From positions 1 to 39,856 of the forward strand of contig JAKSDJ010000083.1 in NCBI GenBank assembly GCA_022360155.1: a DNA stretch of 39,856 nt. The letters run 5' to 3'. This DNA comes from Chloroflexales bacterium (lineage in GTDB: Bacteria; Chloroflexota; Chloroflexia; Chloroflexales; Chloroflexaceae). A program made the position numbers and the translations under genes. Below are positions 8,038-23,447 of the stretch, in pieces. The stretch's first letter is position 1. Each line of letters opens with the position of its first letter. The notes below the pieces were generated by a model, which was not told the origin of the DNA, did no database searches, and saw only the letters and a list, made by a program, of their open reading frames with translations.

Positions 8038-8373
8038 TACACAGCCATCGCGTAAGAAATCCTCCATCGCTCAGATAGCATGGGCGATGGAGTGCAAGTA
8101 ACCCGCCCGAACGTACAAGCAACTGTCTGTTCAGGCAATGACAGAAGCTTTACCATCGTGATGCCCCTGTAAACGAGAGCATTTGAGGGACTTCCCATTC
8201 CCAGTTTCGCAAGCAATATCCTTTGCCAAAAGCTTGGCAGGTTTGTCGGTCTGTGTTATCGCCTGCTATTGTGAACAAAGTAAAAGAATGAAAGCGTTTT
8301 CTCATTGTTCGCCTAGCTTTTGACTATGCGGGTCAGCCTTCATGACAACCGTGCGCATGTTGCATCTACGATT
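8038..8373. other. Intergenic region between the RsbT-like gene and folK
   Basis: It contains a 9-bp inverted repeat (CTCCATCGC at 8062-8070 and its complement at 8084-8092) 24 bp past the RsbT-like stop. With no T-run it is only a possible terminator. Nothing else is recognisable. Confidence 0.4.
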
Positions 8374-8886
8374 ATGCCAAAAATATCACGCATTTTTTTG
8401 AGTTTGAGCAGTACAGCAGACAACCGAGTCAGGCATCTACGCACCGCTATTGATCACCTACGCACGATTATGGCGCCAGAACGATATTCGAGCCTCTATG
8501 TCATCGCTCCACTAGGTCAAATGGAAGCCGACGCCGTCGTCAGCGCCGTTATCGAAGGCACGACCGAACTCAAGCCCGTCAAACTGCTGAAAGCGATCAA
8601 AGAGATCGAGAGGCTTATGGGCCGAAAGCCCGATGTAAATTATGGTCCTCAGACAATCGACATCGATATCTTGTTCTACGATTCTATTATCATTGAGGCG
8701 TTAGAACTTATCATTCCCCATCCTCGTATATCCGAGCGCGCCTATATACTCAAGCCGCTCGCTGAAATCGCCCCCGCCTTGATGCATCCAGTTTTGTACT
8801 ACACGGTTCGCGAACTCCTCCGTGACACCGATGATGCTGACCAAGTCATTCCTTACACCTCACGCGATATGCCCCATAGAAAATGA
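8374..8886 (+). CDS. folK: FolK-like hydroxymethyldihydropteridine pyrophosphokinase, divergent
   Basis: The frame opens at 8320. The ATG at 8374 (170 residues, MPKISRIFLSL) fits the family start better, although neither has a clear ribosome-binding site. FolK transfers pyrophosphate from ATP to 6-hydroxymethyl-dihydropterin in folate synthesis. The fold is recognisable: RIFLSLSSTADNRVRHLRTAIDHL, the SSLYVIAPLG strand, TIDIDILFYDS with both magnesium aspartates, and IPHPRISERAYILKPLAEIAP. Several normally invariant positions differ. The opening GSN reads SST, the pterin-binding FLN/YLN segment reads VVSA, and the ATP-binding Arg of WGPR is Gln (YGPQ). It may be a slow, specialised or inactive form. 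It converges on murJ with a 22-bp gap. Confidence 0.72.
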   Translation: MPKISRIFLSLSSTADNRVRHLRTAIDHLRTIMAPERYSSLYVIAPLGQMEADAVVSAVIEGTTELKPVKLLKAIKEIERLMGRKPDVNYGPQTIDIDILFYDSIIIEALELIIPHPRISERAYILKPLAEIAPALMHPVLYYTVRELLRDTDDADQVIPYTSRDMPHRK

Positions 8887-8908
8887 TTACGCTCTGCGCA
8901 CTCTACGG

Positions 8909-10540
8909 TTATCGCTCTCTGGCGGCAAGGTGGCGCAATCGAGACAAGACTATACGGGCTTCGCCAGAGCCAAGAAATGCGGCCAAAGTAACATAGAGAG
9001 CCAGGGCGACCATACCAACTGCAACAAGCCAGGCGACAAGCGCAAGCATGTCGGCTCGCCAGGCATACAAGCCATCGAGCGCTAGGAATGGCAGGGTCGC
9101 TAAGGACATTTGGCGCACAGTCCACACCATGCCCCCCAGCACAACTGTAGCCAGACCAGAGGCCAGCACCGAGCGACGGAGTGCGCCATCACGCCAAATA
9201 CCTGGCAAAAGGCGCTGTAACAAGATGAGCAGCAATAACATCTCGATATTATTTGCTACACTGAAAGCCAGCGCCAACGTTCCGACATTACCGCCCATAT
9301 TGAGAGCCAATATGCCCAAGCCAAGGTTTAGACCTACTTGAAGCAATCCGACCAGTACGGGAACAAGGGTCTGCTGCATTGCATAAAACGTACGGATCAG
9401 TATCTCCGATGCAGCAAAAGCCGGCAGCGCCGTCGCGTAGGCCAACAATGGCATAACAGTGAAGGTCAAAGATACCTGGTCGAACTCACCGCGTTGCAGC
9501 ACAAGCCGCACTAGAGGCACAGCCAAAACCATAAGCATAACGGTAGCGGGCAGGGTAAGAAATAGGATCATCCGCAAGGTCTGGCGCACCCGGTCGGCCA
9601 ATTCGTCCAATTGGCGGTCGGCAAACAGGCGCGCCAACAAAGGGAACGCCACCGTGCTCAGACTCAGCGCGAAGATTCCATAGGGAAGCAACATCAACTG
9701 ATAAGCGTAATCCAACCCGGCCAGTTTTTCATCACCTAGAGCCAGCCGTGCCGTCAGCGCTGCGGTAACCAGGATGCTCAACTGCGCCGCCGACTGGCCT
9801 ACGACCCGCGGGGCCATCTGGCTTGCAATCGTGCGCAATTCGGCCATACCGCGCCCCATCGTCAAGCGCAGGCGCATTCCCAAGCGGAAAAGGCCAGGTA
9901 TCTGCACAAGCAAGTAGCCAAGCGCCCCAACAATCACGCCCCAGGCAGTTCCCCAGATCCCCAGTCGCGGCGCAAGCACCAGCGTTCCAGCAATAATCCC
10001 CAGATTGTACACCGAGGGCGCCATAGCGGGGAGAGTGAAGCGATCACGGGCATTGAGCGCGGCCATTGCCAACCCTCCCAGCCCTAGCAACAACGGCGAA
10101 AGGAGAAAGAGCCGGGTGAGATCAGTGATCAACTCGCGACCAGTTGGGGAAAAACCCTGCCCGCCGAAGAACCAGCCAATCAGCAACGGCGCCAGCACCC
10201 AGAGCAAACCGCTTGCTAGAGCAAGTAGCCCCAGTACCCAGGTCAACACTGCACTTGCCATCCGCCAGGCACGCTCGCTGCCATCGCGGTCCCAAACCTC
10301 GATAAACACCGGAATAAAGGTACTGCCCAGCGCTCCGCCAATAATGACAATGTAGAGCAGATCGGGCACTTTGAATGCTGCGCGATAGGCGGCGAAGTCG
10401 GGGGAGGTGCCAAACTGGGCGGCGAGGATGACATCGCGGACGAGTCCGGTGACCCGGCTCAAAATATAGCCCCCCATCACAATCAGGCTGTTGAAGAAAG
10501 GGCTTAGGCGAAGCCGGCGGAGGAATGAGGCAAGTTGCAC
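8909..10540 (-). CDS. murJ: Lipid II flippase MurJ/MviN
   Basis: A 543-residue multi-pass membrane protein of the MOP superfamily that flips the peptidoglycan precursor lipid II. The N-terminus carries the family signature SRVTGLVRDVILAAQFGTSPDFAAYRAAFKVPDLLY and GALGSTFIPVF. The middle has the LLPYGIFALSLSTVAFPLLARL stretch typical of MurJ and about a dozen further hydrophobic segments. I choose the GTG at 10540-10538 because AGAGGG lies 9 nt upstream; an upstream TTG at 10567 has no ribosome-binding site. Its start overlaps the rpsT promoter on the opposite strand. Confidence 0.94.
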   Translation of the reverse strand: MQLASFLRRLRLSPFFNSLIVMGGYILSRVTGLVRDVILAAQFGTSPDFAAYRAAFKVPDLLYIVIIGGALGSTFIPVFIEVWDRDGSERAWRMASAVLTWVLGLLALASGLLWVLAPLLIGWFFGGQGFSPTGRELITDLTRLFLLSPLLLGLGGLAMAALNARDRFTLPAMAPSVYNLGIIAGTLVLAPRLGIWGTAWGVIVGALGYLLVQIPGLFRLGMRLRLTMGRGMAELRTIASQMAPRVVGQSAAQLSILVTAALTARLALGDEKLAGLDYAYQLMLLPYGIFALSLSTVAFPLLARLFADRQLDELADRVRQTLRMILFLTLPATVMLMVLAVPLVRLVLQRGEFDQVSLTFTVMPLLAYATALPAFAASEILIRTFYAMQQTLVPVLVGLLQVGLNLGLGILALNMGGNVGTLALAFSVANNIEMLLLLILLQRLLPGIWRDGALRRSVLASGLATVVLGGMVWTVRQMSLATLPFLALDGLYAWRADMLALVAWLVAVGMVALALYVTLAAFLGSGEARIVLSRLRHLAARER

Positions 10541-10563
10541 AGAAGGCTTCCCTCTGCTATAAT
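10535..10563 (+). promoter_or_regulatory. Sigma-70-type promoter of rpsT
   Basis: TTGCAC, 17 nt, TATAAT. It lies about 110 bp ahead of the rpsT start codon and overlaps the first codons of murJ on the other strand. Confidence 0.75.
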
Positions 10564-10669
10564 TCAAGATTAGTGCATAATAAACGAGTAGTGTGGCAAG
10601 ATTGAAGAGAGATGGTATTAGCCACTTACTGCTCGTTGCTTGTTATTCACCAGTAGGAGGCTGAATACT

Positions 10670-10939
10670 TTGGCGAACACAAAATCGGCAAAAAAGCGCA
10701 TTCGATCAAATGAGCACAAGCGGCTGCGCAACCAGATGTATAAGTCACGTGTCAAGACAATGATTAAAAAAGCCGAACAGGCTATCTTCAGCGGATCGCC
10801 GAGCGAAGAAGCGCTTCGCGAAGCCGTTCGCACGATAGACAAAGCAGCAGTCAAAGGGATTCTTCACAAGAACAACGCGGCACGCCGCAAGTCGCGCCTG
10901 ATGCAAAAGTTTAACGTCGCTACTCGACCCACAACCTGA
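10670..10939 (+). CDS. rpsT: 30S ribosomal protein S20
   Basis: An 89-residue basic protein of the small ribosomal subunit. The family start [29 protein letters not shown] is present, as is the C-terminal [17 protein letters not shown]. The start codon is TTG at 10670, in the place of the usual [10 protein letters not shown] start, with a perfect AGGAGG 9 nt upstream. An upstream ATG at 10640 lacks a ribosome-binding site and would add ten unrelated residues. The unusual TTG start may matter because S20 in E. coli is translationally autoregulated and uses a non-ATG start (UUG). Whether regulation is shared here is not visible. Confidence 0.97.
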
Positions 10940-10952
10940 AACAGCGCAAGGC

Positions 10953-10996
10953 AAACGAGGGACGATGCAGCAAGGTCTTGGCATCGTCCCTCGTTT
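10953..10996. terminator. Bidirectional terminator between rpsT and holA
   Basis: A perfect 16-bp stem (AAACGAGGGACGATGC and its complement) with a 12-nt loop. It lies between two convergent genes, 14 bp from the rpsT stop and 1 bp from the holA stop. The arm ends give A/T runs on both strands. Confidence 0.88.
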
Positions 10997-10997
10997 A

Positions 10998-11948
10998 TCA
11001 TTTGTCGCACACCTCCAACACTAACAGTTCAAGCGCAACATCGGCTTGGATCCGTCCAGTTTTGCTGGCCCGGTCAAGTTCGAGCAAGCGATCATGAATA
11101 AGCTCTAACTTACCCGCTTCGAAGCCGCGCGCTTGTTCCAACGCCTTCCGTATCACAAACGGCTTTTGTCCCAGACGCATTGCTATTTCGTCCTGGCGTA
11201 GGCGCTGCGCCGCCAGTTCGCGCACCCCTAACAAGATCCGCACCTGTCGCGCTAGCATAAACAGAATATATGTCGCCGCCTGCCCTTCATTCAAGAGCGA
11301 GCGCAATCCCTGCAATGCCGTCCCACGCCGTCGCAAACTCAAATTATCAATAAAGGCGAACAAGTTTTGTTCTTGGCCGTCTTGCACCAACAGATCCACA
11401 ACATCAGCATTGATTCGCCCGCCTCGCCCAACGTAGCTCGCTAGCTTATCCAGTTCGTTAACCAACGATCGGCTATTGTTGCCAGCATAGTCAACCAGAC
11501 GCTGCGCCGCCGCTGCATCCAGCCGTACTTGCAGACGTCTGGCCCGCGCATCGAGCCAGCGGCGCAATTCGGCCCCTTCACGCGGCTGAAACTCTTGGAT
11601 CTGGGCAGCCTTTTTGAGATAGGTGAATAGCGAACTACGCCGATCAACATTCTCGCCTTCCACAAAGACGAGGTCACAGGTCGGCGGGATGCGCTCCAGG
11701 TAGGCGCGCAGAGCATCGCGCTCTGGACCAGCTTTCGCATGCTTGAGCGCATCGGTAACGATCACCAGACGACGTTCCGCCAAGAAAGGAGTCACCTCAC
11801 AGGCGCGCGCTAGATCATCAAGCTTGAGCTTGCGCCCTTCAAGCAAGGCTATATTGAAATCGGCAACTTCAACGGGGAGAGATGAACGTAGTTCTGCCAG
11901 AGCTTCGCTGCGCGTGAACTCATCTGGACCGTAAAAGAGGTAAATCAT
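10998..11948 (-). CDS. holA: DNA polymerase III subunit delta
   Basis: A 316-residue protein of the clamp-loader delta family, which opens the beta sliding clamp. It begins YLFYGPDEFTRSEAL and contains TPFLAERRLVIVTDA, LVFVEGENVDRRSSLFTYL, YAGNNSRSLVNELDKLASYVG, LFAFIDNLSLRRR and the C-terminal lid-like LARQVRILLGVRELAAQ, KPFVIRKALEQAR and ELDRASKTGRIQADVALELLVLEV. These elements occur in this order in bacterial delta subunits. It shares the hairpin at 10953-10996 with the convergent rpsT. Confidence 0.94.
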   Translation of the reverse strand: MIYLFYGPDEFTRSEALAELRSSLPVEVADFNIALLEGRKLKLDDLARACEVTPFLAERRLVIVTDALKHAKAGPERDALRAYLERIPPTCDLVFVEGENVDRRSSLFTYLKKAAQIQEFQPREGAELRRWLDARARRLQVRLDAAAAQRLVDYAGNNSRSLVNELDKLASYVGRGGRINADVVDLLVQDGQEQNLFAFIDNLSLRRRGTALQGLRSLLNEGQAATYILFMLARQVRILLGVRELAAQRLRQDEIAMRLGQKPFVIRKALEQARGFEAGKLELIHDRLLELDRASKTGRIQADVALELLVLEVCDK

Positions 11949-12668
11949 ACCACTTGGGAATTTGGCTTCGCGATTTTGCGTTTCTCGGCTGCACAGCCAA
12001 GATTACAATTCAACATCGCAAATCCATGAAATGGCCCTGCCTTGTCGTGAACGGGTCAGTTTCGAACCTGCATAAGCAGGTGGGTGCCCGCCTGTAAGCT
12101 TTTGCGGCCCGCCGCATAACTTAACTCGTTAGAGCAAAGCTCCCAGAGAAACTGTGTTGGCTCAAAACATATACCCGTACACGTACAGGGCGGGGCTACC
12201 AGATAATACCACGGGGCATCAGAATGTGCAACCACTAGCGATAGTCGCACAATATGCATAAAAACTCATCATCTAGCCAGGTCGTAATCCCCCCACATGT
12301 CCGAAGCACACTGAGAGTTTCGCAGATATCATGATAAAAGAGGACGGATCAATTGGAAGCAAGCCACACTTGGGCGCAGCTTCCGCGTGTCTGTCTACTC
12401 AAGCAACATGGGGAGGATATGGCATTCCACTCACAATGACTGCATTGCAATGCAGTCAGAGTTCGGTTTCAAATCTAGCAGTCTGCGGTCAAAAGGATGC
12501 CGGTAGATTTCCGGCGCCCTTTGTTGAGATACCTTGCCCTCAGCGCCAGCATTGTCACATAACCCGCTGGGGGCAAGGAGTTGTTAGCGGTGTATCTAGG
12601 GCGTCCCCTCAACACATCGTTGAGCAATAAGACCTCGAAGTGATACGCTTTATTGAAAGGAGCTACGT
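11949..12668. other. Gene-free region upstream of the 287-residue secreted protein
   Basis: About 720 bp without a convincing gene; the open frames here lack ribosome-binding sites and familiar sequence. The one clear structure is the 22-bp palindrome at 12437-12458. An AAAGGAG ribosome-binding site at the right end belongs to the next gene. Confidence 0.5.
12437..12458. repeat. Perfect 22-bp palindrome
   Basis: Arms TGACTGCATTG and CAATGCAGTCA meet with no spacer, about 210 bp ahead of the secreted-protein gene at 12669. With no loop it suits a dimeric DNA-binding protein better than an RNA hairpin. No function is assigned. Confidence 0.8.
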
Positions 12669-13532
12669 ATGCGACGCATCCTTGGAGTTGTGGCGGCATT
12701 TGTGGCCGTCGCCCTCCTGGCAATTCAACCGGCCACGGCCGCAACCTTAAACCCTACCTTCCAACGAGTCTGGCAGCGACAAGATTTACCGGTAGTACAG
12801 CAGGTCACCAATCGATCCTGGACCTGGGGACCGGCCTCAATCTCCGGTGAACTCCGCGAAACCTTCGTCAACCGCCCCGAGGGAACCCGGCTTGTCCAGT
12901 ATTTCGATAAATCACGGATGGAGATCAACGATCCGACCGCAGACCCCAATGCCACTTGGTATGTGACCAACGGTCTGCTCCCAATCGAGTTGATGACAGG
13001 ACGACTCCAGCTTGGCTATGATGCTTTTGAGTATCGCGGGCCATCTGCTATCGCAGCCATCGGAGATCCCGACAACACCTTCCCGACCTATGCCAGCCTG
13101 CTATGGTTCTATCAAAATCCCGGCCAGGTTAACCTCAGCGACTTGGGCAAACCCGCCACTGGCTTCGTCAACTCTGATGGGTCGATCACCGGATTCAACG
13201 ATTATGTCAACGATCCGGCGACTATGCTGGTGCGCGGCGAGAACAACCACGGTGTCGCTAAAGCTTTTGTCGATTTCATGAACCAGCGTGGTCTGGTCTA
13301 TGAGAATGAGCGCTACATTCGCGACCAAGTCTACGATCCTATCTTCGTTTTCGGTCTGCCGGTTAGTGGCGCTTATTGGACGAAAGTCAAAGTAGCCGGT
13401 ATAGAACGATCGATCCTGTTCCAGGTCTTTGAGCGACGAGTACTAACCTACAACCCGGCCAATCCGCCCGCCTGGCGCGTAGAAATGGGCAACGTCGGCC
13501 AACACTATTATATCTGGCGCTACGGCCAATAA
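12669..13532 (+). CDS. Secreted protein consisting of one unnamed VWxR...HYYxWRYGQ domain
   Basis: A 287-residue protein with a signal peptide (residues 1-24, MRRILGVVAAFVAVALLAIQPATA) and an AAAGGAG ribosome-binding site. The mature part (about 29-287) is one domain I recognise only as recurring in Chloroflexota secreted proteins. It starts FQRVWQRQDLPV and continues RSWTWGP, TRLVQYFDKSRMEIN, YVTNGLLPIELMTGRLQLG, FPTYASL, LFQVFERRVLTYNPANPP and WRVEMGNVGQHYYIWRYGQ at the very C-terminus. The same domain forms the C-terminal third of the 765-residue protein at 15008-17305. The many aromatic residues suggest an extracellular binding domain; no catalytic motif stands out. Its function is unknown. 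Confidence 0.9.
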   Translation: MRRILGVVAAFVAVALLAIQPATAATLNPTFQRVWQRQDLPVVQQVTNRSWTWGPASISGELRETFVNRPEGTRLVQYFDKSRMEINDPTADPNATWYVTNGLLPIELMTGRLQLGYDAFEYRGPSAIAAIGDPDNTFPTYASLLWFYQNPGQVNLSDLGKPATGFVNSDGSITGFNDYVNDPATMLVRGENNHGVAKAFVDFMNQRGLVYENERYIRDQVYDPIFVFGLPVSGAYWTKVKVAGIERSILFQVFERRVLTYNPANPPAWRVEMGNVGQHYYIWRYGQ

Positions 13533-13617
13533 ATGCCGTTTTGGCAGCTATAACAAAAACCCAACGTCATTTGATGACTCTCGGGTCTTTAATCACCTCA
13601 ATCAAACGCTGCCAACC

Positions 13618-14787
13618 TCACATTCCATTACCTGAACCGCCTTCTTCATCAAGGCGCTTGACGATCGCGGTAAACAATCGAGCAGCTCGCTCGATTGTCT
13701 GCTGATCCACTGCTGTTGTATCCGAGTCACGTGACACTGGCTTGGTAAACGTTGCACTAGTCATCAGAGTCAAGGGACGATAACCTTCGGCATGGAGCAG
13801 GGTAGCAAGCGTGGGTGCGGCATGGTACGAGCGCGGTTCAGCGTCGATCCGAGTATCGCTAGCATCTGCGTCAGCAGCAAGCTGCATCAATAGGGGATCA
13901 GCTGAGTATTGGCGCAACAGCACGCCTTCGCGCGAAATATACGTAAGTTGACCTTGAGCAATCATTTCCAGAGCGATGAAGAGCGTTGTATCTTGGGGGA
14001 AAGGGTAACGCTCCAGGAAATTGCGTAAACCGCTATTTCCTGTGGCAGTAGCCCCAAGTGCAACAGCCCACACTTGCACCTGCCGAAGCGTTCCTAAACG
14101 CTCAACGGCAGCAAGCATCGCGGCCAACGCACCTGCTCCGCCTGGCATTTCAGCTTTTGCTGCAGCTTTGGTGCGAAAGGCGCCAGGTATCTGGGTCAAC
14201 AACAAGTACATGACAGGAAGGGCATGGCTATACAGCCAAAAAGGATGTTGCGGATCAAGCAATTGCAGCCCGGACAGGAGGGCCAGCAAGGTGAAGGCAA
14301 TGATTCGTCCAATGATAGCGGCCCGACGCGCACCGCGAAAACGCGCAAACCATCCTTGCTGGAGGGGAGAGTCGAGCGGTGCGAGCAAAACGACACGCCA
14401 GCGCTCTTCTTTTTCGCTAGCGCGTGTTCCAACTACATTCTGGCTTTCACCATGCGACGCCAGAGATGGAAGCGAAATAAGCGCCCCATCACTAAGCACC
14501 AGCGCCAGCCCAAGCAATGCCAACAACAACGACAGCAGCGGCAACCAAACACTGAGCAGCGCAATCAAACCACTTAGGATCGCCAACAGCGGATACGTCC
14601 AACCAAAACTGGCGGGCGCAGTGAACGCTTCAGCACTGACCCGCATCCCTGCCCGGCGTAGACGGCCATCAATATATGCTGCGGCCTGGGCTTCGGCTAG
14701 CGATGTGGCGGAGCGTGGCCCGATGCCCACCATAAGATGATGGACGACATCGAGCGACTCGTCACGCCGGGTACGATTCATAATCAC
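13618..14787 (-). CDS. M28 (aminopeptidase-like) family membrane protein lacking most metal ligands
   Basis: A 389-residue protein, start GTG at 14787 or ATG at 14781. The N-terminal part resembles M28 peptidases (HHLMVGIGPRSATSLAEAQAAAYIDGRLRRAGMRV). A strongly hydrophobic double membrane segment follows (about 70-105), with a second hydrophobic region around 180-215. The M28 core can be traced, but its zinc ligands are mostly gone. The HxD strand reads APLDS, the GADDNASG loop reads PGGAGALAA, the catalytic GAEE pair reads GATATG, and the next Asp is Glu (IALEMIAQG). The late His segment (SYHAAPTLATLLHAEGYRPLTLMT) remains. It is therefore probably not a peptidase. It lies between the two genes sharing the VWxR domain; a link is unproven. 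Confidence 0.72.
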   Translation of the reverse strand: MIMNRTRRDESLDVVHHLMVGIGPRSATSLAEAQAAAYIDGRLRRAGMRVSAEAFTAPASFGWTYPLLAILSGLIALLSVWLPLLSLLLALLGLALVLSDGALISLPSLASHGESQNVVGTRASEKEERWRVVLLAPLDSPLQQGWFARFRGARRAAIIGRIIAFTLLALLSGLQLLDPQHPFWLYSHALPVMYLLLTQIPGAFRTKAAAKAEMPGGAGALAAMLAAVERLGTLRQVQVWAVALGATATGNSGLRNFLERYPFPQDTTLFIALEMIAQGQLTYISREGVLLRQYSADPLLMQLAADADASDTRIDAEPRSYHAAPTLATLLHAEGYRPLTLMTSATFTKPVSRDSDTTAVDQQTIERAARLFTAIVKRLDEEGGSGNGM

Positions 14788-14952
14788 GATGAGCGATGAA
14801 CATGAACGACGAATATATCAGGAGCAAGCCTATCGCGGTTGGATATAGGAGGCTATGTCGATGGAAGAAATGAATTTGGATATCAACTCCAGGATGAGCC
14901 CAACCACCTCATCACTATCTCGGCACAAGCGCCAGACGTATCGTTACATATA

Positions 14953-15009
14953 AACGATCAATGAGCAGCGAGCGATACCTTTTTCAAGCTCACCGCTTCG
15001 TTGATCGTT
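14953..15009 (-). terminator. Possible terminator of the 765-residue secreted-protein gene
   Basis: Inverted repeat AACGATCAA/TTGATCGTT, with partial pairing continuing inward, spanning the TAA stop. A short AT-rich tail follows on the minus strand. It is a moderate call because the T-run is interrupted. Confidence 0.4.
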
Positions 15010-17305
15010 ATGGTAAGGATTGACCGTAGCGCCACTCATAGTAGTGCCGTCCGACATTGCCCATCTCCACCTGCCAACCAGGGGGGTTGCCCGGAGTATA
15101 GGTCAGCACCCGACGCTCGAACGCTTGCACTAGCACATCGCGCGATACACCACCAACCTGAACCCGCACCCAATAAGGCTCGGTGAGCGGATAACCTACA
15201 ACGGAAGGCCAATTGACCAGAGGGCCATCGGCATAGCGCCCCCGCTCGTAGATCTCACCCTGCTCGTTGAGAAATTGCCAGAAGATGGCCGGAATGTTAT
15301 GGCCAGTCTCCGGGAAGTAGCGCACCAAACTCGCCGCAGCTAGACGCGGCCCGGTATAGCGGCCGATCTGCCCGCTACGGTCGAGTGACTCAAGCACATC
15401 ATTGCCGGTCCGGTCGGCAAATGGTTCATCCAGCAACCCGCGCAAGCTGGCATAGGTCGGAGCCGTCGCATCATCGGCATCTCCGGCAAGCACGATATTT
15501 GCCGAACGACGGCGGGTGAACTCGTTATCGCCGATCTGCATCTGACCGCTGATCAGTTCTTTCACCAGCAGGCCATTCGTCACAAACCAGGGGCTCGACC
15601 TGTCGCCGCTCAGATCGTTGATCTCCATTCGCGCCTTGTCGAAATATTGCACTAGGCGTGTACCGGTGGCCGACTGGTTATACATCTCGTTGCGCGTGGC
15701 GAGAGCATCCGGCCCCCACACCCAGGTACGAATCACCCGCTGGTTAGCGATGGGCAAGTCGCTACGCTGCCAGACCTGCTGAAAAGCCACATCAGCAAAG
15801 TCTGCCGCCTGGACCGTATTTACCTGCTCTAGGGCGTTGGTCGAGGTTGGGGTGCTGGTCGGCGTGCTGGTTGATAGCGCAAATGGCGTCGCTACGGTTG
15901 GCTGCTCCTCCGTGGCCGGGGTGGGTCGGATCGGCGTATTCGACGAACGGCCACAATCGGTCTGTCCCGGAACACAAAGCTGCAGGGTAAGGTCATAGCG
16001 AATGAACTGATTGCCAATATCGCCAATATTCTTGACCTGCACGTAATAGTAGCCATCTACAGAGGGGATGAATTCGATCTGCGAGTCAAGCGTTTCACCA
16101 CCGGGTATATCGTCATTGCGGTCAATCAGGCTCACCCCATCGCGGTCGGTCAGGAATATCTCCGTATCGGCGCCAGCCTGAGTGTCCTGATTAACCTGGT
16201 TCGGCCCACGATAGCGCCGGGTGTCGGTGAAGATGAAATAACGTTTGCCCGTTTTGCCGAAGAAATAAACCCAGTCAGCATCGCCATTCGGGCAAAGCCG
16301 CCGATCCTCTTGCAACTCATTCGAGAGAATCAGCTGTGCCTCTTCGGGCAGGCCATCAGGCTCGAATAGATCGAGGCAGACCCCAACAATGGTTGTTGGG
16401 GTTGGTCCAGTCGCTTCGCCGATCAATGCGATAGTGTAGAAATAGTTGGCATTACCACGATTGGCAGTATCACGGACAAGAATATAGTAGCGCCCATCGA
16501 CCGGTATCGTGAACGAAATACGCGGGCGTAGATCATTGGGGTTGGGCGGTTCGCGGTTGAAGAAATCATCGTTGAAGGCAAGGCTGCGCCCCTGCTCGTC
16601 AAACAGTTCCAGCGAGAGGTCCAGCCCAAACGACATTTCACTGATGTCAACCGTATAGGATTTGCCGCCGACCCCGCCAAATACCAGCCAGTCCTGATCA
16701 CCTGCCGGGCAGATCGTGCGCTGCTGGGTGGTGTTGACATCGATTACTTTTGCCGACCCACGGTCATTATCACCCTCAAAACCATCCCGACAGAGCGGCG
16801 CGGGAGTGGCCGTTGGGCCAGCAGTAGGAGTTCGGGTTGGAGTATTTGTCGGAGCAGCAACAACACTGACTTCCAAAAAGGCTACTGCTTGTTCAGTAGG
16901 CGTAGAAGCTCTTGCTGCAACTATATTTAGATTAGCTGTTGTACCAACGGCCGCATTCGCAGAGATGGTTATCCGCACGACAACCGAGCGTTGCGCATTG
17001 GTACTGAGCGCAATGGCTGATGCAGGCGAGAAATCTGCTGTCCACCCTGAGGGTAAATTAGTTACAGATAGGTTGAATGTATCATTAGCTCCATTGTTTC
17101 TTAAGGTTGAGGTAAAAGTGCTTGATTCGCCTGGTTGCGCACTGAATTTCCCACTAGTAGGATTCCAAAAGAAATCAACCTGTTGCAATGGAGCGCTAGG
17201 CGGTGAAGCATCTACAGAAACGCGATGGGTCGCGAAAACTACCACCAGGGTAAGGAGCAGAATAGTAATAACGAGATTTCGTAAATGAGGGTATAGCCGA
17301 ACCAC
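15008..17305 (-). CDS. Large secreted protein: NEW3-like, two PPC domains, Thr/Pro linkers and the shared VWxR domain
   Basis: A 765-residue exported protein. I choose the GTG at 17305 because AGGAG lies 10 nt upstream. After a signal or anchor segment (about 8-33) comes a beta-sandwich like the NEW3/CARDB type (SGKFSAQPGESSTFTSTLRNNGANDTFNLSV). A TNTPTRTPTAGPTATP linker follows. Two bacterial pre-peptidase C-terminal (PPC) domains come next, each beginning at a Cys and reading CPAGDQDWLVF / CPNGDADWVYF, with DGRYYILVRD / DGYYYVQVKN later. A second Thr/Pro linker leads to the roughly 260-residue C-terminal domain (FQQVWQRSDLP ... VGRHYYEWRYGQ) shared with the 12669 gene. The composition suggests a cell-surface or matrix protein that binds polymers. 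No catalytic domain is seen. Confidence 0.88.
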   Translation of the reverse strand: MVRLYPHLRNLVITILLLTLVVVFATHRVSVDASPPSAPLQQVDFFWNPTSGKFSAQPGESSTFTSTLRNNGANDTFNLSVTNLPSGWTADFSPASAIALSTNAQRSVVVRITISANAAVGTTANLNIVAARASTPTEQAVAFLEVSVVAAPTNTPTRTPTAGPTATPAPLCRDGFEGDNDRGSAKVIDVNTTQQRTICPAGDQDWLVFGGVGGKSYTVDISEMSFGLDLSLELFDEQGRSLAFNDDFFNREPPNPNDLRPRISFTIPVDGRYYILVRDTANRGNANYFYTIALIGEATGPTPTTIVGVCLDLFEPDGLPEEAQLILSNELQEDRRLCPNGDADWVYFFGKTGKRYFIFTDTRRYRGPNQVNQDTQAGADTEIFLTDRDGVSLIDRNDDIPGGETLDSQIEFIPSVDGYYYVQVKNIGDIGNQFIRYDLTLQLCVPGQTDCGRSSNTPIRPTPATEEQPTVATPFALSTSTPTSTPTSTNALEQVNTVQAADFADVAFQQVWQRSDLPIANQRVIRTWVWGPDALATRNEMYNQSATGTRLVQYFDKARMEINDLSGDRSSPWFVTNGLLVKELISGQMQIGDNEFTRRRSANIVLAGDADDATAPTYASLRGLLDEPFADRTGNDVLESLDRSGQIGRYTGPRLAAASLVRYFPETGHNIPAIFWQFLNEQGEIYERGRYADGPLVNWPSVVGYPLTEPYWVRVQVGGVSRDVLVQAFERRVLTYTPGNPPGWQVEMGNVGRHYYEWRYGQSLP

Positions 17306-17663
17306 GTGCGACAAACTCCTGACATTCTAACGTAGGGATCAGCAGCCGCATTATAGCACGGCGCATGGCTATGTCAAGCGATGGTCGGGTGACAAGTTGA
17401 TCAGGCGCTAGGCAGGGAAAGGTGACAGGAGTTTTAGATTGACTGGATGCCCCTAACTCATTGGGAAGACTGTTCGCAAGGGCAGGGACTTCCCCTGCCC
17501 CTAACAGCTTCAATTCGCTTTCGTTAGCATCACAACAGAACGTGATAGATTTTCAGTGGCGCGCGTCGCCTCACAGACGAGCGTCCAAGAACTCCGCACA
17601 CTTCACGTAAACTTGTTCCCCTCACCGCACTTCTTGGATTCTCATGCACCCAGATTAGCCCCT
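17306..17663. other. Intergenic region between aroF and the secreted-protein gene
   Basis: It contains a perfect 8-bp inverted repeat, GGGCAGGG (17480-17487) and CCCTGCCC (17493-17500), with a 5-nt loop but no T-run. The motif GTTAGGGGC occurs twice nearby on the minus strand. It may be a dispersed repeat or a weak terminator of aroF. No gene is seen. Confidence 0.45.
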
Positions 17664-18674
17664 CTACCGACCCAGCGCCGCCGCAAGCGCTGCCAAGCGC
17701 GACATCAACGCAGCGAAATTCTCTGGTGTGAGCGATTGCGCGCCGTCGCTCTTGGCCCGATCCGGGTCGGGATGCACCTCGATAATCAGCCCGTCGGCGC
17801 CGGCGGCCAGCGAAGCTAGCGCCAGTGGCGGAACCAGATACCACTTGCCAGTGCCATGGCTAGGGTCGGCGATGACCGGCAGGTGTGAGCGGCGTTTCGC
17901 CAAGGCTACCGCGTTGAGGTCCATCGTGTTGCGCGTGGCCGTCTCGAAAGTACGGATGCCGCGTTCGCAGAGAATGACATTCGGATTGCCCTGCGCCACA
18001 ACGTATTCGGCGCTGAGCAGCCACTCCTCGATGGTCGCTGAAAGGCCGCGCTTGAGCAGTACAGGCTTCCCGGTACGCCCAACTTCTTCGAGGAGTTGGT
18101 AATTCTGCATATTGCGTGCGCCGACCTGGAGCACATCGGCGTAGCGCGCGACAAGATCCACATCGGTTGGCGTCATCACTTCAGTAACAATGGGCAGCCC
18201 AGTTTCGGCGCGAGCCAGCGCCAGTAGACGCAGCCCTTCTTCACCCATTCCCCGGAACGTGTAGGGCGACGAGCGGGGTTTGAACGCGCCGCCGCGCAAC
18301 ATTGTCGCGCCAGCCTCGCGCACAGATCGCGCTGTGGTTATGATCTGCTCTTCGCTCTCAACTGTGCAGGGGCCGGCCATAATTACGCAAGAGCCGGCGC
18401 CAACCGCCACATCACCAACCATCACAATCGTATCCTCTGGGCGGAACTCGCGGGCGGTGAGCTTGTAGGGCCGCGTGATTGGCACGGTCTGCTGGACACC
18501 GGGGAAGACTTCCAACTCCTCACGCAATATTGGCGGTATGGCCGCACCAACCACACCAATAATCGTACGTTCTTCACCTTGGGACAAATGCCCGCGTAAA
18601 CTGTGCTCCTTCAAACGCTCCAGGACTGCGTTAATCTGACTTTCGTCAGCATTACTGCGCATGACAACAATCAT
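17664..18674 (-). CDS. aroF: 3-deoxy-7-phosphoheptulonate (DAHP) synthase, type I-beta with regulatory N-domain
   Basis: A 336-residue enzyme condensing phosphoenolpyruvate and erythrose 4-phosphate in the first committed step of aromatic amino acid synthesis. The start is at 18674 ([21 protein letters not shown]), where AAGGAGGT precedes at ideal spacing. The first 70 or so residues form the ferredoxin-like domain found in the Thermotoga-type enzyme, whose studied members are feedback-inhibited by Phe and Tyr. The TIM-barrel motifs are intact: [68 protein letters not shown] and the final [17 protein letters not shown]. The frame extends 34 codons further to an ATG at 18776, also with GAGAGG upstream, so an extended form is possible. 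It is co-oriented with and downstream of aroH. Confidence 0.95.
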
Positions 18675-18800
18675 AGCGTTGACCTCCTTGTGATCTGTTG
18701 ACGGCTGTTCAATGGCTACCGGCGGCTGGGCGACTATCAAGCGTTGGGCGCTGCGCTGTTCAATAGTAATAGTCATAATGCTTATTTCCTCTCACTGATG

Positions 18801-18831
18801 CAAACAAAAACTCTCAGCTATGAGCTGAGAG
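18801..18831 (-). terminator. Intercistronic terminator-like hairpin across the aroH stop codon
   Basis: On the minus strand CTCTCAGCT, a 3-nt loop CAT, AGCTGAGAG, then TTTTTGTTTG. The aroH stop codon TAG (18820-18818) begins in the loop and runs into the stem. The tail TTTTTGTTTG is identical to that of the terminator ahead of aroH. A ribosome finishing aroH would cover the hairpin. Confidence 0.8.
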
Positions 18832-19225
18832 GTTGGGGTTGGGGCGCAAAGGCTGTCATTATCGCACGTTCTGGGCGTAGTCCCCGCGCACCGCGAATGT
18901 ACACATGGACAACGTCACTGGCGTGCCGGGTGGTATTCCAGTGAACCAGCACCCGGATACAGCGTTGCAAGCTGCCGGGTACATTCATTTCGTGCCCGCA
19001 CAAAAGCGCTGTATCGATCCAGCCCAACTCGCGGGCGGCAACCGCCGGGAACTCGGCATTGAGATCGGGCGTGGTGGTAAAGATCGCGCTGGCGATGTCT
19101 TCCGGTTTGATCCCGTTCGCGGCGATGAGGAGTTGCAATAACTCGCGCGTTGCTTCGAGGATCGCTTCACGTGTGTTTTCGGTTGCGGTGGTCGCACCAC
19201 GGATGCCTCGACACCAGATTGTCAT
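18818..19225 (-). CDS. aroH: Chorismate mutase, AroH type
   Basis: A 135-residue enzyme converting chorismate to prephenate, the branch to Phe and Tyr. It aligns well with the Bacillus subtilis AroH trimer: RGIRGATTATENTREAIL with the active-site Arg, TTTPDLNAEFPAVAARELGW, the CGHEMNVPGSLQRCIRVLV segment with the active-site Glu and Arg, and the C-terminal VHVYIRGARGLRP. I place the start at 19225, where GAGAGGG lies just upstream. A longer frame to 19288 would read through the leader terminator. It is preceded by a Phe/Tyr-rich leader peptide and terminator, and followed by aroF. Confidence 0.95.
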   Translation of the reverse strand: MTIWCRGIRGATTATENTREAILEATRELLQLLIAANGIKPEDIASAIFTTTPDLNAEFPAVAARELGWIDTALLCGHEMNVPGSLQRCIRVLVHWNTTRHASDVVHVYIRGARGLRPERAIMTAFAPQPQPLSS

Positions 19226-19256
19226 GATTGCCCTCTCTATTGACTGTCTAGCAGAC

Positions 19257-19292
19257 AAACAAAAAGGGCGTGGAGCTTGTTGCTCCACGCCC
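19257..19292 (-). terminator. Attenuator terminator ahead of aroH
   Basis: On the minus strand GGGCGTGGAGC, loop AACAA, GCTCCACGCCC, then TTTTTGTTTG. The 11-bp GC-rich stem with a T-run is a textbook intrinsic terminator. It lies after the leader peptide stop and 31 bp before the aroH start. A segment of the leader ORF (19345-19355) can pair, 9 of 11 positions, with 19290-19300, which overlaps the base of this hairpin. That makes a candidate antiterminator. Confidence 0.92.
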
Positions 19293-19317
19293 GCCGATAT
19301 TGTATTGCTATTCTTTC

Positions 19318-19398
19318 TTATATAACGCGAAGCAACCAGGCTTTATGTCGGCTGGTAAAGTAAAAGTAAAAATAAAAGCTGTTGCGACCGTACGACAT
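19318..19398 (-). CDS. Phe/Tyr leader peptide of the aroH-aroF attenuator
   Basis: A 26-codon ORF starting at the ATG at 19398 and ending in TAA at 19320-19318. GAGAGG lies 9 nt upstream of the start. The peptide begins MSYGRNS, then has seven consecutive aromatic codons, FYFYFYF, followed by TSRHKAW and a short tail. Such runs are the hallmark of leader peptides in ribosome-mediated attenuation, as in the Phe-rich leader of enterobacterial pheA. The alternating Phe and Tyr codons would let a ribosome stall when either charged tRNA is short. The promoter is about 38 bp upstream and the terminator begins 25 bp downstream. I infer control of aroH and aroF by Phe and Tyr. Confidence 0.88.
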   Translation of the reverse strand: MSYGRNSFYFYFYFTSRHKAWLLRVI

Positions 19399-19435
19399 TA
19401 TTAAAAGCCTCTCAATATAGGTTGCCTTCAAAGCG

Positions 19436-19464
19436 ACTATAACATACCCGCCTGTGCGAGTCAA
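19436..19464 (-). promoter_or_regulatory. Sigma-70-type promoter of the aroH-aroF leader
   Basis: On the minus strand TTGACT, exactly 17 nt, TATAGT. Transcription would start near 19429, giving a leader of about 200 nt before the aroH start codon. Confidence 0.85.
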
Positions 19465-19505
19465 GAGCAGTTATGACGAAAAACGATAACAAACTTGTCA
19501 TCGCT

Positions 19506-19531
19506 GATACATGATCATCGATACATGATCA
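19506..19531. repeat. Tandem pair of 12-bp direct repeats
   Basis: GATACATGATCA occurs at 19506-19517 and 19520-19531, a 14-bp period. It is directly after the ANTAR gene stop and about 40 bp upstream of the aroH promoter. It could be a regulator site; no family is recognised. Confidence 0.75.
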
Positions 19532-20116
19532 CTATGTACCCAAAAGTTCCTCAGCCTCAATAATCGCCTGGGCAATGTCTTTCATCTTCGCTCGCTTATC
19601 ACGCGCGCGCTGGCGCAGGCGCTCATAGGCGTCCCGCTCGCTCAAACCCAAACGCTGCATCAGAATACCTTTGGCCCGCTCGATCAGCTTACGCGCCTCG
19701 AGCGAGTCTTGCAACTCGACCACCTCGGCCCGTAGCGCCTGGATTTCCCTGAAACGAGCCAGCGCAATATTGATGGCTGGCGGCAATTCGTTTTCGTTCA
19801 CCGGCTTGACTAAATAGCCCAACGCACCTGCCGCTTCCGCCTTACGGATCGTATCTTTGTCCGCGTAGGCAGTAAGCATAATGATAGGAACAGGGTTGTT
19901 ATCCCGAATGCGGGCGGCAGCTTCAGTGCCTTCCATCTCCGGCATGCGAATATCCATAATGATCAGGTCTGGACTCAGGCGACCCGCCAAGTTGATAGCC
20001 TCTGTACCCGAACGGGCAATACCAATTACATCGTAGCCTAACCCTTTGAGTTGTTCCTCGAGCGTAAGCGAGACTAAATCGTTGTCTTCAGCAATCAGAA
20101 TCCGCGTAATCGCCAT
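19532..20116 (-). CDS. Response regulator with C-terminal ANTAR RNA-binding domain
   Basis: A 194-residue protein. Residues 1-120 are a receiver domain with the acidic pair at Glu10-Asp11, phosphoacceptor Asp55 in IIMDIRMPE, the LTAY Thr region and the KPV lysine. A short coiled coil (EIQALRAEVVELQDSLEARKLI) leads to an ANTAR domain (about 140-192: LIERAKGILMQRLGLSERDAYERLRQRARDKRAKMKDIAQAIIEAE). ANTAR proteins such as AmiR and NasR bind paired hairpins in nascent RNA and prevent termination. GAGGAG precedes the ATG. No histidine kinase is adjacent. The next gene downstream on the same strand is aroH, which has its own promoter and attenuator. Confidence 0.95.
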   Translation of the reverse strand: MAITRILIAEDNDLVSLTLEEQLKGLGYDVIGIARSGTEAINLAGRLSPDLIIMDIRMPEMEGTEAAARIRDNNPVPIIMLTAYADKDTIRKAEAAGALGYLVKPVNENELPPAINIALARFREIQALRAEVVELQDSLEARKLIERAKGILMQRLGLSERDAYERLRQRARDKRAKMKDIAQAIIEAEELLGT

Positions 20117-20781
20117 GGCACGCTCTCCTCACGTTGCCTGTTCCTTAGGGCTGCTCTCCATAGGCATCGTGGCACAGTACTGGCTAGCCTATGAGCGAAT
20201 AAAATAGTCCAGGTTGCAAATACCGGGCAACCTGCTTCTTGACGATAAATAGCGGAACTCCTTCGTCAATCCTTCATCCTGGATAACGTGAAGTTCAGCA
20301 AGGCATCAACACATCACATCGGTTTCGCCTAGCAATCGACGATGCGGGCATACAGGGAAACAAAAAGGAATCACAGGAAGGCTCCGCCTACTCACGCTTC
20401 TCTACCACGCAAGTCCTGCGAATCGCTGAATAAACCCAACTTTAAAAGTCGCTGGCGTTCGTCGCTATGCATAATACCACAATTCACCTGACTGTGGAAA
20501 TGAATCGCGGCGACATCGCCAAAGCAGCGTCGGGCGGCATCCATATCAAACGTCCAATCGTTATTCATACGCCGTATCTACACACTCATGCCGATCAACA
20601 GAGAGCAGGCGACCTCCAAGGAACTTGCTGCGCGGGCTCTGTACCGACTAAGCCCCGCTTATGTCTACAAGATAAGGGGACTTTACAATTTGTCTGCACG
20701 CACGGCCCGATTGCTGAAAGCAGAAAGCTTATGATACAATCAGGTCGTAGCGGGATAAAACACTACGCAAGGAGGAGGTAC
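20117..20781. other. Intergenic region between the divergent ANTAR and O-methyltransferase genes
   Basis: 665 bp. It holds a perfect 8-bp inverted repeat (CAGGTTGC 20210-20217, GCAACCTG 20227-20234, 9-nt loop) within the likely ANTAR leader or promoter. The promoter of the methyltransferase is at 20711-20740. The frame open from 20467 is only the in-frame upstream extension of the methyltransferase and has no coding character. Confidence 0.5.
20711..20740 (+). promoter_or_regulatory. Promoter of the O-methyltransferase gene
   Basis: TTGCTG, 18 nt, TACAAT, about 40 bp ahead of the start codon. Confidence 0.55.
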
Positions 20782-21444
20782 ATGCGTTACGATATTACCA
20801 ATATCGCGATCGAAGATTATCTGTCCGATCTTATGCCGCCGCGAATCGAACCGTTGGCGGCGCTAGAGGAGCAAGCAAGACAGCAGGGGCTCTCTCTGGT
20901 TGGCGCGGTGCAAGGCCAGCTTCTCTATCTGTTGGCCCGCAGCATGGAAGCCCGGCAAGTGCTCGAAGTCGGCATCACGACCGGCTATGCTGCGATGTGG
21001 TTATTACAAGCGTTATCCGCTACTGGCGGGTATCTGACCGGTATCGAACGCCAGCCGGAACGTTGTGAACTAGCACGAGGCGTACTGAGCCGAGCGGGAC
21101 TTGGCGACAAAGCCACCATTCACGAAGGCGAATGGTATAATATCCTGCCAACCCTGAGCGGTCCATATGATTTGATCTTTCTTGACATCTTGCGCAGCGT
21201 CTCGAATGTCGATCAGGCCACCCAAGCGCTGGAGATGTGTGTACCGCTGCTACGCACAGGCGGTATGCTCGTTGCCGACAATGTGTTGTGCAGCGCACAG
21301 GTGCTCGAAGATGAGGAAGATGCGCCGCCGCTTGTCCGCGGCATCCAACTCTTTAATAAAGCGGTGATGAGTCATCCGCAACTCGAATCGGTGATCATCC
21401 CATTGCGCGACGGTGTAGCCATTAGTCGGAAACGCGACACGTAA
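20782..21444 (+). CDS. O-methyltransferase, caffeoyl-CoA OMT-like family
   Basis: A 220-residue SAM-dependent methyltransferase. The ATG at 20782 is preceded by AAGGAGGAGG, one of the strongest ribosome-binding sites in the window, so I choose it over the longer open frame. Family features: opening helix (EDYLSDLMPPRIEPLAALEEQARQQG), SAM motif VLEVGITTGYAAMWLLQAL, acidic GIERQPERCELAR, metal-type strand YDLIFLDI and LLRTGGMLVADNVLCSAQV. It ends DGVAISRKR as in bacterial members. The usual magnesium-binding DADK reads DILR, so metal dependence is uncertain. The substrate is not predictable. It is 74 bp upstream of a SpoIIE phosphatase gene. Confidence 0.9.
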   Translation: MRYDITNIAIEDYLSDLMPPRIEPLAALEEQARQQGLSLVGAVQGQLLYLLARSMEARQVLEVGITTGYAAMWLLQALSATGGYLTGIERQPERCELARGVLSRAGLGDKATIHEGEWYNILPTLSGPYDLIFLDILRSVSNVDQATQALEMCVPLLRTGGMLVADNVLCSAQVLEDEEDAPPLVRGIQLFNKAVMSHPQLESVIIPLRDGVAISRKRDT

Positions 21445-21457
21445 GATTCGCAGTGCA

Positions 21458-21482
21458 GTGTAAAATGTCATGTGTAAAATGT
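21458..21482. repeat. Short direct repeats before the phosphatase gene
   Basis: GTGTAAAATGT occurs twice (21458-21468 and 21472-21482) with a 14-bp period. It is followed by further near-copies of the pattern (ATTATGCATTACGTTTTACGC). It looks like a degenerate short tandem repeat tract. Confidence 0.6.
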
Positions 21483-21518
21483 AAATTATGCATTACGTTT
21501 TACGCAATACGACATCTT

Positions 21519-23414
21519 ATGGCCCCAGCAGATACGCAACAACGAATCGCTGAGCTCACAACACTCAACGAACTGGCCCTGACGCTAAACAAAGCGCTTG
21601 ATTTACGCGAAGCGCTAGACAGTGCATTAGCGCATATCGTTGAGTTGATGGGGCTGCATACTGGTTGGATTTTCCTTACCGATGAGAGTAAGGCGTTTAC
21701 ACTTGCAGCGCGTCACAATCTTCCGCCGGCAATCACCTATCCTGGCCCAGCGTGGAACGACGAGTGCGACTGCCAGGAATTATGTGTAGCGGGAAAACTC
21801 AATAAGGCAGTCAACATGGTACGCTGTAGCCGACTGCGTGGTGCAATTGGCGACAAGCGCGGCTTGGCGCAGCACGCCTCTGTACCGTTATGGAGCGGCG
21901 ACGAGATCCTGGGCATTCTAAACGTTGCGACGACGCAATGGGGCCGGATCCCGTCGCCCGAACTGCACTTGCTCTCGGCGGCAGGCTATCTATTGGGCAC
22001 CGCTATCGCTCGGGCCAGACTCTACGAACAAGTCAAGATCCGTCGAGTGCAAGAGCAGGGTGCGCTCCTCAAGCTGTCACAGGAACTGTTGGTTGCCGAC
22101 GACCTCGAGCCGGCATTGCATCGTCTGGTTCGGGTTAGTGCGCGCCTACTCGAAGCCGATGCCTGCGCCTTTATCGAGGCTGATGAACTGATGGGGCGGG
22201 CTATTCTACGCGCCGCCCACGGCTGGGTTCTGCCTGACGAATGCGCCTGGCCGTTGACGCTCGACCCAGATGTACCGCATCTCTGGTATCTTCCCGAAAC
22301 CACAACAGATCTTTCCGCCGATGCACTCACCGATTTACCGCCGCTGCTGGTCCAACAAAATTTCAAGGGTCACCTCGCTGTCGCGGTGACGCTGGGGGGT
22401 ATTCCAATTGGTACACTGATGGTCAATAGCCTGAGCTATCGCCAATTCCTGGACGATGAGAATCAGCTTCTTGGACTGTTGTCGAGTCAGTTGGTCCAAA
22501 CTCTTGAGCGTGATCGGCTCCATCAGGAAGCATTGGCACGTCAGCGCCTTGAGCAAGAACTCGAATTGGCCCGCGACATTCAGGCTAGTTTCTTGCCCGA
22601 TTGCTGCCCGGAGGCGCCGGGCTACGAAATTGCCGCTTACTATCGCGCAGCTCGTCAGGTCGGAGGCGACTTCTATGACTTCTTTGAACTTGCCGCTGAT
22701 CAATCACGGCTGCACGATCCGTATTGGCTAGCCGGCGCGCCTTCCAACCGGACAGAACGGCGTATGGACTCGCTGCAACATGGACAGACGCTCATATCTG
22801 GAACCGAACGCCACTCGGCGCAGGCTGCAAGTGCAAACCGGCTAGGCATCGTGATTGCCGACGTGACCGATAAGGGTGTTCCCGCAGCGCTCTTCATGGC
22901 CCTTTCACGCACACTGCTCCGCGCTACAGCCATCGATGGCCGCTCGCCCGCAACGGTGCTCGATCAGGCCAACCGGCTGATCCTGGCCGATGCGCGGGCT
23001 GGCCTCTTCGTGACATGCTTCTACGCGATACTTGACACGGGGACACACCAGTTAACCTATGCGAATGGCGGGCATAACTACCCACTACTCTATCGTAAAG
23101 CGACGGGGGAAATCGAGCAGCTACGCGCCCAGGGGATCGTGCTAGGGATTATTCCACAACCCCAGTTCGAAGAGCACGCCACGATACTCGAACCAGGCGA
23201 TATTTTGCTGTTCTATACCGATGGCGTTACCGAGGCAATGAATCCGCAACGCGAATTGTTCGGTGACGAACGCCTCATAGAGGTTATGCGCACACACCAT
23301 CGACACCGTCCGGAGGAGATCACCCACGCTGTACTGGAGGCGATTGGCGTTTTCGCCAACGGCCAAAGTCAGAGCGACGACATTACAATAGTTGTTTTGA
23401 AGCGTCAGGAGTAA
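21519..23414 (+). CDS. GAF-GAF-SpoIIE serine/threonine phosphatase (RsbU-like)
   Basis: A 631-residue cytoplasmic signalling protein from the ATG at 21519 (MAPADTQQRIAELTTLNELA). The frame is open further upstream, but that part overlaps a repeat tract. No clear ribosome-binding site is seen. Two GAF sensor domains (about 5-160 and 185-340) and a short coiled coil (RLEQELELARDIQASFLPD) precede a PP2C/SpoIIE domain. Its metal and catalytic motifs are present: VGGDFYDFF, ADVTDKGVPAALFMA, ANGGHNYP, LFYTDGVTEA and SDDITIVVL. A roughly 50-residue polar insertion (22693-22838) separates the first two motifs. Such phosphatases reactivate anti-anti-sigma proteins in partner-switching pathways. The distant RsbT-like gene is the only related component seen. 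Confidence 0.93.
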   Translation: MAPADTQQRIAELTTLNELALTLNKALDLREALDSALAHIVELMGLHTGWIFLTDESKAFTLAARHNLPPAITYPGPAWNDECDCQELCVAGKLNKAVNMVRCSRLRGAIGDKRGLAQHASVPLWSGDEILGILNVATTQWGRIPSPELHLLSAAGYLLGTAIARARLYEQVKIRRVQEQGALLKLSQELLVADDLEPALHRLVRVSARLLEADACAFIEADELMGRAILRAAHGWVLPDECAWPLTLDPDVPHLWYLPETTTDLSADALTDLPPLLVQQNFKGHLAVAVTLGGIPIGTLMVNSLSYRQFLDDENQLLGLLSSQLVQTLERDRLHQEALARQRLEQELELARDIQASFLPDCCPEAPGYEIAAYYRAARQVGGDFYDFFELAADQSRLHDPYWLAGAPSNRTERRMDSLQHGQTLISGTERHSAQAASANRLGIVIADVTDKGVPAALFMALSRTLLRATAIDGRSPATVLDQANRLILADARAGLFVTCFYAILDTGTHQLTYANGGHNYPLLYRKATGEIEQLRAQGIVLGIIPQPQFEEHATILEPGDILLFYTDGVTEAMNPQRELFGDERLIEVMRTHHRHRPEEITHAVLEAIGVFANGQSQSDDITIVVLKRQE

Positions 23415-23447
23415 CACGTACCATTGGTCGTGTTCTACCGTTCCGTA

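Follow-up and report, generated by a model that had tools for sequence, protein, structure and literature searches.

What kind of domain do P0001 and P0002, two secreted-looking proteins of a Chloroflexales bacterium, have in common, and what could it do outside the cell? Both are encoded in one stretch of 39,856 nucleotides (contig JAKSDJ010000083.1, positions 1 to 39,856, assembly GCA_022360155.1; hereafter the window). A preliminary description, made from the letters of this DNA, had proposed a single fold of no named function with an extracellular adhesive or polymer-binding role. Here, we found that the domain is ordinary in kind but has a new form. It is a two-unit relative of the LGFP repeat that occurs throughout the class and has no name of its own, and it most likely serves as a surface anchor. 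The features on which this rests are listed below (aa, amino acids; i-E, independent E-value).

12669..13532, + strand: P0001, 287-aa putatively secreted protein, the two-unit domain alone (open reading frame; profile A1; structural model)
12669..12743, + strand: signal-peptide-like start of P0001, about residues 1-25 (by eye; low-confidence helix in the model)
12750..13004, + strand: N-terminal LGFP-like unit of P0001, residues 28-112, with WGP...VQYFDKxRMEI...VTNGLL (hhalign)
13005..13223, + strand: insert between the P0001 units, residues 113-185, with the PTYASL block (hhalign 0.6%)
13224..13529, + strand: C-terminal LGFP-like unit of P0001, residues 186-287 (hhalign; structure of the unit alone)
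15008..17305, − strand: P0002, 765-aa putatively secreted protein with NEW3, two PPC stretches and then the two-unit domain (open reading frame; Pfam)
15020..15796, − strand: second copy of the two-unit domain, C-terminal end of P0002 (44% identity to P0001; profile A1, 380 bits)
15542..15793, − strand: N-terminal LGFP-like unit of the P0002 copy (single-repeat profile i-E 0.021, VQYF[DE][KR] in register)
15020..15325, − strand: C-terminal LGFP-like unit of the P0002 copy (single-repeat profile i-E 0.00016, in register)

P0001 and P0002 share a domain without a named family

BLASTP aligned residues 31-287 of P0001 with residues 508-762 of P0002 at 116 of 261 identical positions (44%, E 8e-67), a likeness far beyond chance. 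This one alignment takes in the full mature P0001 and the C-terminal part of P0002, and all sequence blocks that the preliminary description had listed as common to the two copies lie inside it, which bears out the claim that the domain occurs twice. The mature part of P0001 comprises about 262 aa after a putative signal peptide, whose hydrophobic run and Ala-rich end were judged by eye rather than by a predictor. The frame of P0002 is also open from a TTG at 17314, a reading that would give 768 aa instead of 765.

No Pfam-A or NCBIfam family covered the shared domain when both proteins were scanned. When the 57 domain sequences that make up profile A1 were scanned singly, no Pfam family matched more than 4 of them, and the best E-value was 0.003 for APOC4, a match of the chance type. 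A sequence search of the PDB with P0002 and profile A1 returned chance rows only (for example WW domains, rhomboid and myoglobin), and a literature search, limited to open-licence papers, found no description of the domain in Chloroflexota. The picture of a modular, secreted-looking domain that lacks a Pfam-A or NCBIfam model of its own was sound. In the 57-sequence alignment, E64, R74, D80, K81, E85, D133 and H279 are invariant. The N unit has an invariant W53 and G54 and, in at least 90% of the sequences, P55, which gives G-P without a spacer residue, and G229 and P231 are invariant in the C unit. An LG-x-P-like motif, which is a membership feature of LGFP, is present in both units.

Single repeats link the C half of the domain, and probably the N half, to LGFP

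In other secreted proteins of the window's genome we found single repeats, frequently as a pair, with the pattern FWxxNGGLxxFGxP...VQYFERxRFExHPE...VLLGxLG. The domain profile detected these proteins with weak scores and over one half only. We built a profile from eight of the repeats, with no member of the domain family included, and compared it with 111 domain reading frames, among which the same gene read from several loci was counted separately. At i-E<1e-3, the profile matched the C half of 81 of the 111 frames; at i-E<10, it matched the N half of 108 (best 0.0012). Both halves were matched over the conserved motif in 100/111 frames, 101 of the N-half matches corresponding to profile positions 35-39, and the reversed database control gave 0 matches of the single-repeat profile in the domain frames. 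Furthermore, hhalign aligned the single repeat with the C unit at a probability of 98.0% (E 1.6e-13) and with the N unit at 94.0% (E 1.4e-7), and 0 of 100 column shuffles were as good in either comparison. The insert between the units showed no similarity to the single repeat (0.6%).

The single repeats are in turn connected to LGFP itself. Pfam LGFP matched 8 of 121 drawn Chloroflexota genomes, and a profile was made of eight units from five of these eight loci; L130-L132, near-copies of the first, were left out. In hhalign, the Pfam-LGFP units aligned with the single repeats at 97.0% and with the C unit at 87.0% (E 4.1e-6; 0/100 column shuffles as good), and with the insert at 0.2%. Additionally, the single-repeat profile recovered 7 of the 8 Pfam-LGFP loci of Chloroflexota, with sequence E-values from 1.3e-7 to 0.014. 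None of the libraries searched has a name for the single-repeat family. Of the nine proteins tested, L125 scores above the LGFP cut-off (23.4 vs 22 bits), and the other eight do not. Pfam LGFP found nothing over its cut-off in the window's genome. The single-repeat profile matched no PDB chain, so the link to MytA rests on structure and not on a PDB sequence search.

The single repeats and the domain share the same unit in the same register and the frequent pairing, and the second repeat of a pair often has the longer loop and the TGH-x-I helix start seen in the domain's C unit. Unlike the domain, the repeats are short, mutually similar and separable, and they have no insert with a PTYASL block.

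The predicted structure places the C unit next to the MytA repeat

The model of the whole domain had a predicted local distance difference test score (pLDDT) of 91.5 and a predicted template modelling score (pTM) of 0.86. It has a helix at 29-43, strands at 62-65, 73-79, 83-86 and 99-101 and a helix at 104-110 in the first unit, and a helix at 198-204, strands at 236-242, 245-254, 258-261 and 271-273 and a helix at 276-285 in the second; the order of the secondary-structure elements thus recurs across the two halves. When the C unit was modelled alone (pLDDT 86.6), the MytA repeat domain came first in the fold comparison, with 6SWZ at Z 6.8 and 6SX4 at Z 6.7 (1.6 Å over 59 and 57 residues), and the third, unrelated row had a Z of 4.2. 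The whole domain also ranked 6SWZ and 6SX4 first (Z 4.5 and 4.4), with model residues 24-228 on 6SWZ 443-525 at 3.0 Å over 76 residues. A Foldseek search of the viral library with the C unit gave no significant match. The LGFP unit fold is described in PMC11299179 as an N-terminal helix and a three- or four-stranded antiparallel sheet, and the C unit model appears to match it.

Since the profile links and the structure agree, there is good support for the C unit, by profile comparison and fold, as an LGFP-type unit. The N unit is probably of the same type; its assignment, made through the bridging repeats only, is well supported but weaker. The preliminary description had treated the domain as one stand-alone fold of no known kin, to be abandoned if a confident match to a characterised family appeared. 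Instead, we found two related LGFP-type units with an insert, and such a match now exists by half, through profile-profile comparison and structure and not through the curated Pfam score. The fold comparison that had been proposed as a check put the MytA repeat domain first.

The domain has much in common with the LGFP repeat (PF08310; MytA C-terminal domain, 6SWZ, 6SX4): the helix with a small antiparallel sheet, the G-x-P turn, the Q-x-F-[EQD]-[RK] strand, the putative secretion, and the combination with wall-active and other enzymes. In contrast to LGFP, it fails to reach the Pfam score, has an insert of about 73 residues between its units and a longer helix-to-G-x-P loop in the C unit, and, in the sample of the phylum, occurs almost solely in one class.

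The domain is spread through one class and fused to many partners

Every one of the 41 genomes searched, the window's own and 40 relatives, had the domain, with between 1 and 16 matches per genome at E<=0.001 when half-length matches were counted, and the window's genome holds four full or near-full copies. In an even draw of the phylum, 37 of 301 genomes had it at E<=1e-15. The taxonomic spread, another check that had been suggested, turned out to be narrow within the phylum: 35 of the 37 drawn genomes of the window's class had the domain, and 2 of the 264 elsewhere in the phylum. A pattern scan with one genome per species, which reaches close relatives, gave 295 relatives, and the locus analyses used the best 80 of these, which correspond to 78 loci. 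The titles of those 80 read Chloroflexota, Thermomicrobia or bacteria, save L041 (Gracilibacteria); copies from outside the phylum may lie among the other 215. Searches with tblastn found no domain match in phages and three plasmid records with the domain, all of Thermomicrobium or Candidatus Chlorohelix. On the 918-kb plasmid of Thermomicrobium roseum, the domain is fused to an annotated thermonuclease family protein (L139, 2384-3958).

The domain stands at the frame end or alone in 37 of the 78 loci, and more than 60 aa follow it in 41. Among the 59 frames of at least 380 aa in these loci, Pfam partners included glycoside hydrolase folds, SNase, NHL and other propellers, subtilase, lamin-tail, Gmad2, PD40, PPC, periplasmic binding protein and CAP (25 of 46 families listed, each partner in 1 to 6 of the 59 frames). 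Many unrelated extracellular partners, with the domain at either end, form the pattern of a targeting or binding module.

Single LGFP-type units in Chloroflexota accompany YkuD L,D-transpeptidase, VanW and polysaccharide deacetylase, and Pfam-LGFP units in the phylum accompany Amidase_2 and M23. Fusions of wall-active enzymes with LGFP or LGFP-type units were seen at loci L129, L134, L125 and L123. In the window's genome, single units occur on GH99, cellulase-type, CBM11/CBM30-type and glucose/sorbosone dehydrogenase proteins (L120, L122, L119 and L121). The glucose/sorbosone dehydrogenase and GH99 partners have no obvious link to the wall; they fit an anchor and are no proof of a wall ligand. 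Locus L082 encodes a two-unit-domain protein and, about 2.2 kb further downstream on the same contig, a polysaccharide deacetylase (8010-9521) that bears two single units.

P0002 has a conserved partner gene and P0001 has no conserved neighbours

Upstream of its two-unit domain, P0002 carries known domains, and a membrane protein gene follows it.

16940..17137, − strand: NEW3 (NPCBM_assoc, PF10633), P0002 residues 57-122 (Pfam 36.3 bits, cut-off 24.4)
16472..16693, − strand: best PPC stretch (PF04151), P0002 residues 205-278 (Pfam 37 bits, cut-off 25.9)
13618..14787, − strand: gene of a 389-aa membrane protein, downstream of P0002, conserved partner (no Pfam match)

Two PPC stretches of P0002 are over the Pfam cut-off, as is NEW3, which confirms the fusion to both kinds of domain; they are separate and have no kinship to the two-unit domain. 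The partner gene was found in 40 of the 41 genomes. We fetched the P0002-partner regions of 20 of the 39 other genomes that have it, 14 picked for adjacency and 6 for its seeming lack. In all 14 adjacency-picked genomes, the gene immediately upstream of the partner encodes a domain protein and has the same orientation. In four of the other six, a P0002-related NEW3-PPC protein without the domain (L156, L157, L158 and L160) lies upstream of the partner, and in the remaining two neither kind of protein does. A NEW3-PPC protein followed by the 389-aa membrane protein was thus seen in 18 of the 20 regions, 14 with the domain and 4 without. The pair is kept where the domain is gone, which makes the domain a detachable end of P0002. 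The partner protein had no Pfam match. A resemblance of the partner to M28 peptidases, judged by eye, was rejected: the window protein and five relatives gave no M28 match at E<=10, and the residues at the presumed metal-ligand motifs are not conserved in 21 sequences.

None of the 10 other genes tested from window positions 8909-24869 stands beside P0001 in the 17 loci closest to it (L037-L053; up to 5 kb of flank each), and the P0002 query matches those 17 loci solely through the common domain. With no P0001 neighbourhood conserved, we dropped the idea of a joint function drawn from the closeness of the two copies, which looks incidental.

Discussion

We consider it likely that the domain is an LGFP-related, two-unit surface-binding module that anchors proteins non-covalently to the cell wall or a surface polymer. 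Two LGFP-type units would have been fused into one domain around the insert of about 73 residues, each predicted to comprise a short helix, a turn that resembles LG/FG/WG-x-P, and a small antiparallel sheet bearing the VQ-x-F-[ED]-[RK] motif. At either end of putatively secreted proteins, or alone as the whole protein, the domain would bind a cell-wall or surface polymer non-covalently, as LGFP repeats are thought to. Once bound, it may keep at the cell surface whatever it is attached to, be it an enzyme, a propeller, a protease or a PPC/NEW3 stalk. PMC11299179 relates at second hand that the LGFP domain of Corynebacterium glutamicum MytA interacts with peptidoglycan-arabinogalactan. Mycobacteriophage endolysin domains are listed in PMC3314691 with the entry 'cell wall binding?' for LGFP, and PMC12113857 states that Corynebacterium LGFP proteins interact with peptidoglycan. 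From the reported wall interaction of LGFP and the wall-active partners of the single units, we infer a wall or surface-glycan anchor. The polymer-binding role of the preliminary description thus stands as the best reading, and the binding itself would follow from kinship and partners.

Several results weigh against a surface anchor of LGFP type, the strongest doubts arising from the missing Pfam score and the moderate Z, and the binding step is itself putative. Pfam LGFP matched 0 of the 57 domain copies at E<=10 and found nothing in P0001 or P0002. A Z below 8 may, as the tool warns, reflect a merely common arrangement. Foldseek gave no significant match for the whole domain (best E 0.25), and its best E for the C unit was 0.48, with 6SWZ absent among the 50 rows listed. 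The Pfam-LGFP units aligned with the N unit at 0.3%, and 19/100 shuffles were as good. The direct hhalign comparison of the N unit with the C unit was not significant; it took the bridging single repeats and the model's secondary structure to reveal the internal duplication. Moreover, the domain has two units and not a tandem run of five plain repeats such as PMC11299179 describes for MytA and GH70 GtfD. Since it shows neither the curated Pfam score nor the tandem run, we call it a related variant and do not file it under PF08310. Arabinogalactan is not known from Chloroflexota, so the ligand would have to differ from that in C. glutamicum.

Among the alternatives, the one that survives best, although we regard it as unlikely, is that an LGFP-derived domain has lost glycan binding and become a protein-protein or structural module, for example in an envelope lattice or stalk whose free subunit would be the 287-aa protein. 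The 1 to 16 matches per genome in 41 genomes, the stand-alone version with a signal-like start, the pairing of P0002 with a membrane protein gene, and the conserved charged D80, K81, R83, E85, R256 and R257 with no obvious aromatic platform would all suit such a module. However, the variety of fused enzymes would be expected of a targeting module more than of a part made for one assembly, and the pair persists without the domain in the four P0002 relatives that lie at the partner gene.

Convergence is a still poorer candidate. The likeness to LGFP would then lie in a small antiparallel sheet and a shared motif, arrived at independently by an unrelated Chloroflexia invention, and the lack of a direct Pfam LGFP match in 57 copies, the non-significant Foldseek searches and the Z below 8 agree with this. 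But convergence would need to yield both the structural first rank of LGFP, with its clear gap, and the profile links through intermediates, which are in the right register and equalled by 0 of 100 shuffles. Finally, it is very improbable that the domain is itself an enzyme, such as a glycan-active one: the residues invariant in the 57 sequences would allow it, but several of them sit in the motif common to the single repeats, no catalytic family matches the domain, and its fusion partners include enzymes of many unrelated types.

A broader form of the surface anchor is possible, and we put it forward tentatively: the domain may be the general non-covalent surface-sorting module of the class Chloroflexia, with one class-specific wall or surface polymer as its ligand. 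Gain or loss of the domain at either end would then switch secreted proteases, glycosidases, nucleases, propellers and PPC stalks between free and cell-bound states.

These results trace the origin of a domain that occurs in nearly every sampled genome of the class, often in many copies, and lies outside Pfam-A and NCBIfam, and they propose for it a function that can be tested. LGFP-type binding would reach beyond the mycolate actinobacteria, in which arabinogalactan is part of the ligand, into a phylum whose envelope is different. If the wall binding is true, it would show how these bacteria retain secreted enzymes at their surface, the whole surface proteome would become identifiable by sequence, and the domain could serve as an anchor tag for surface display.

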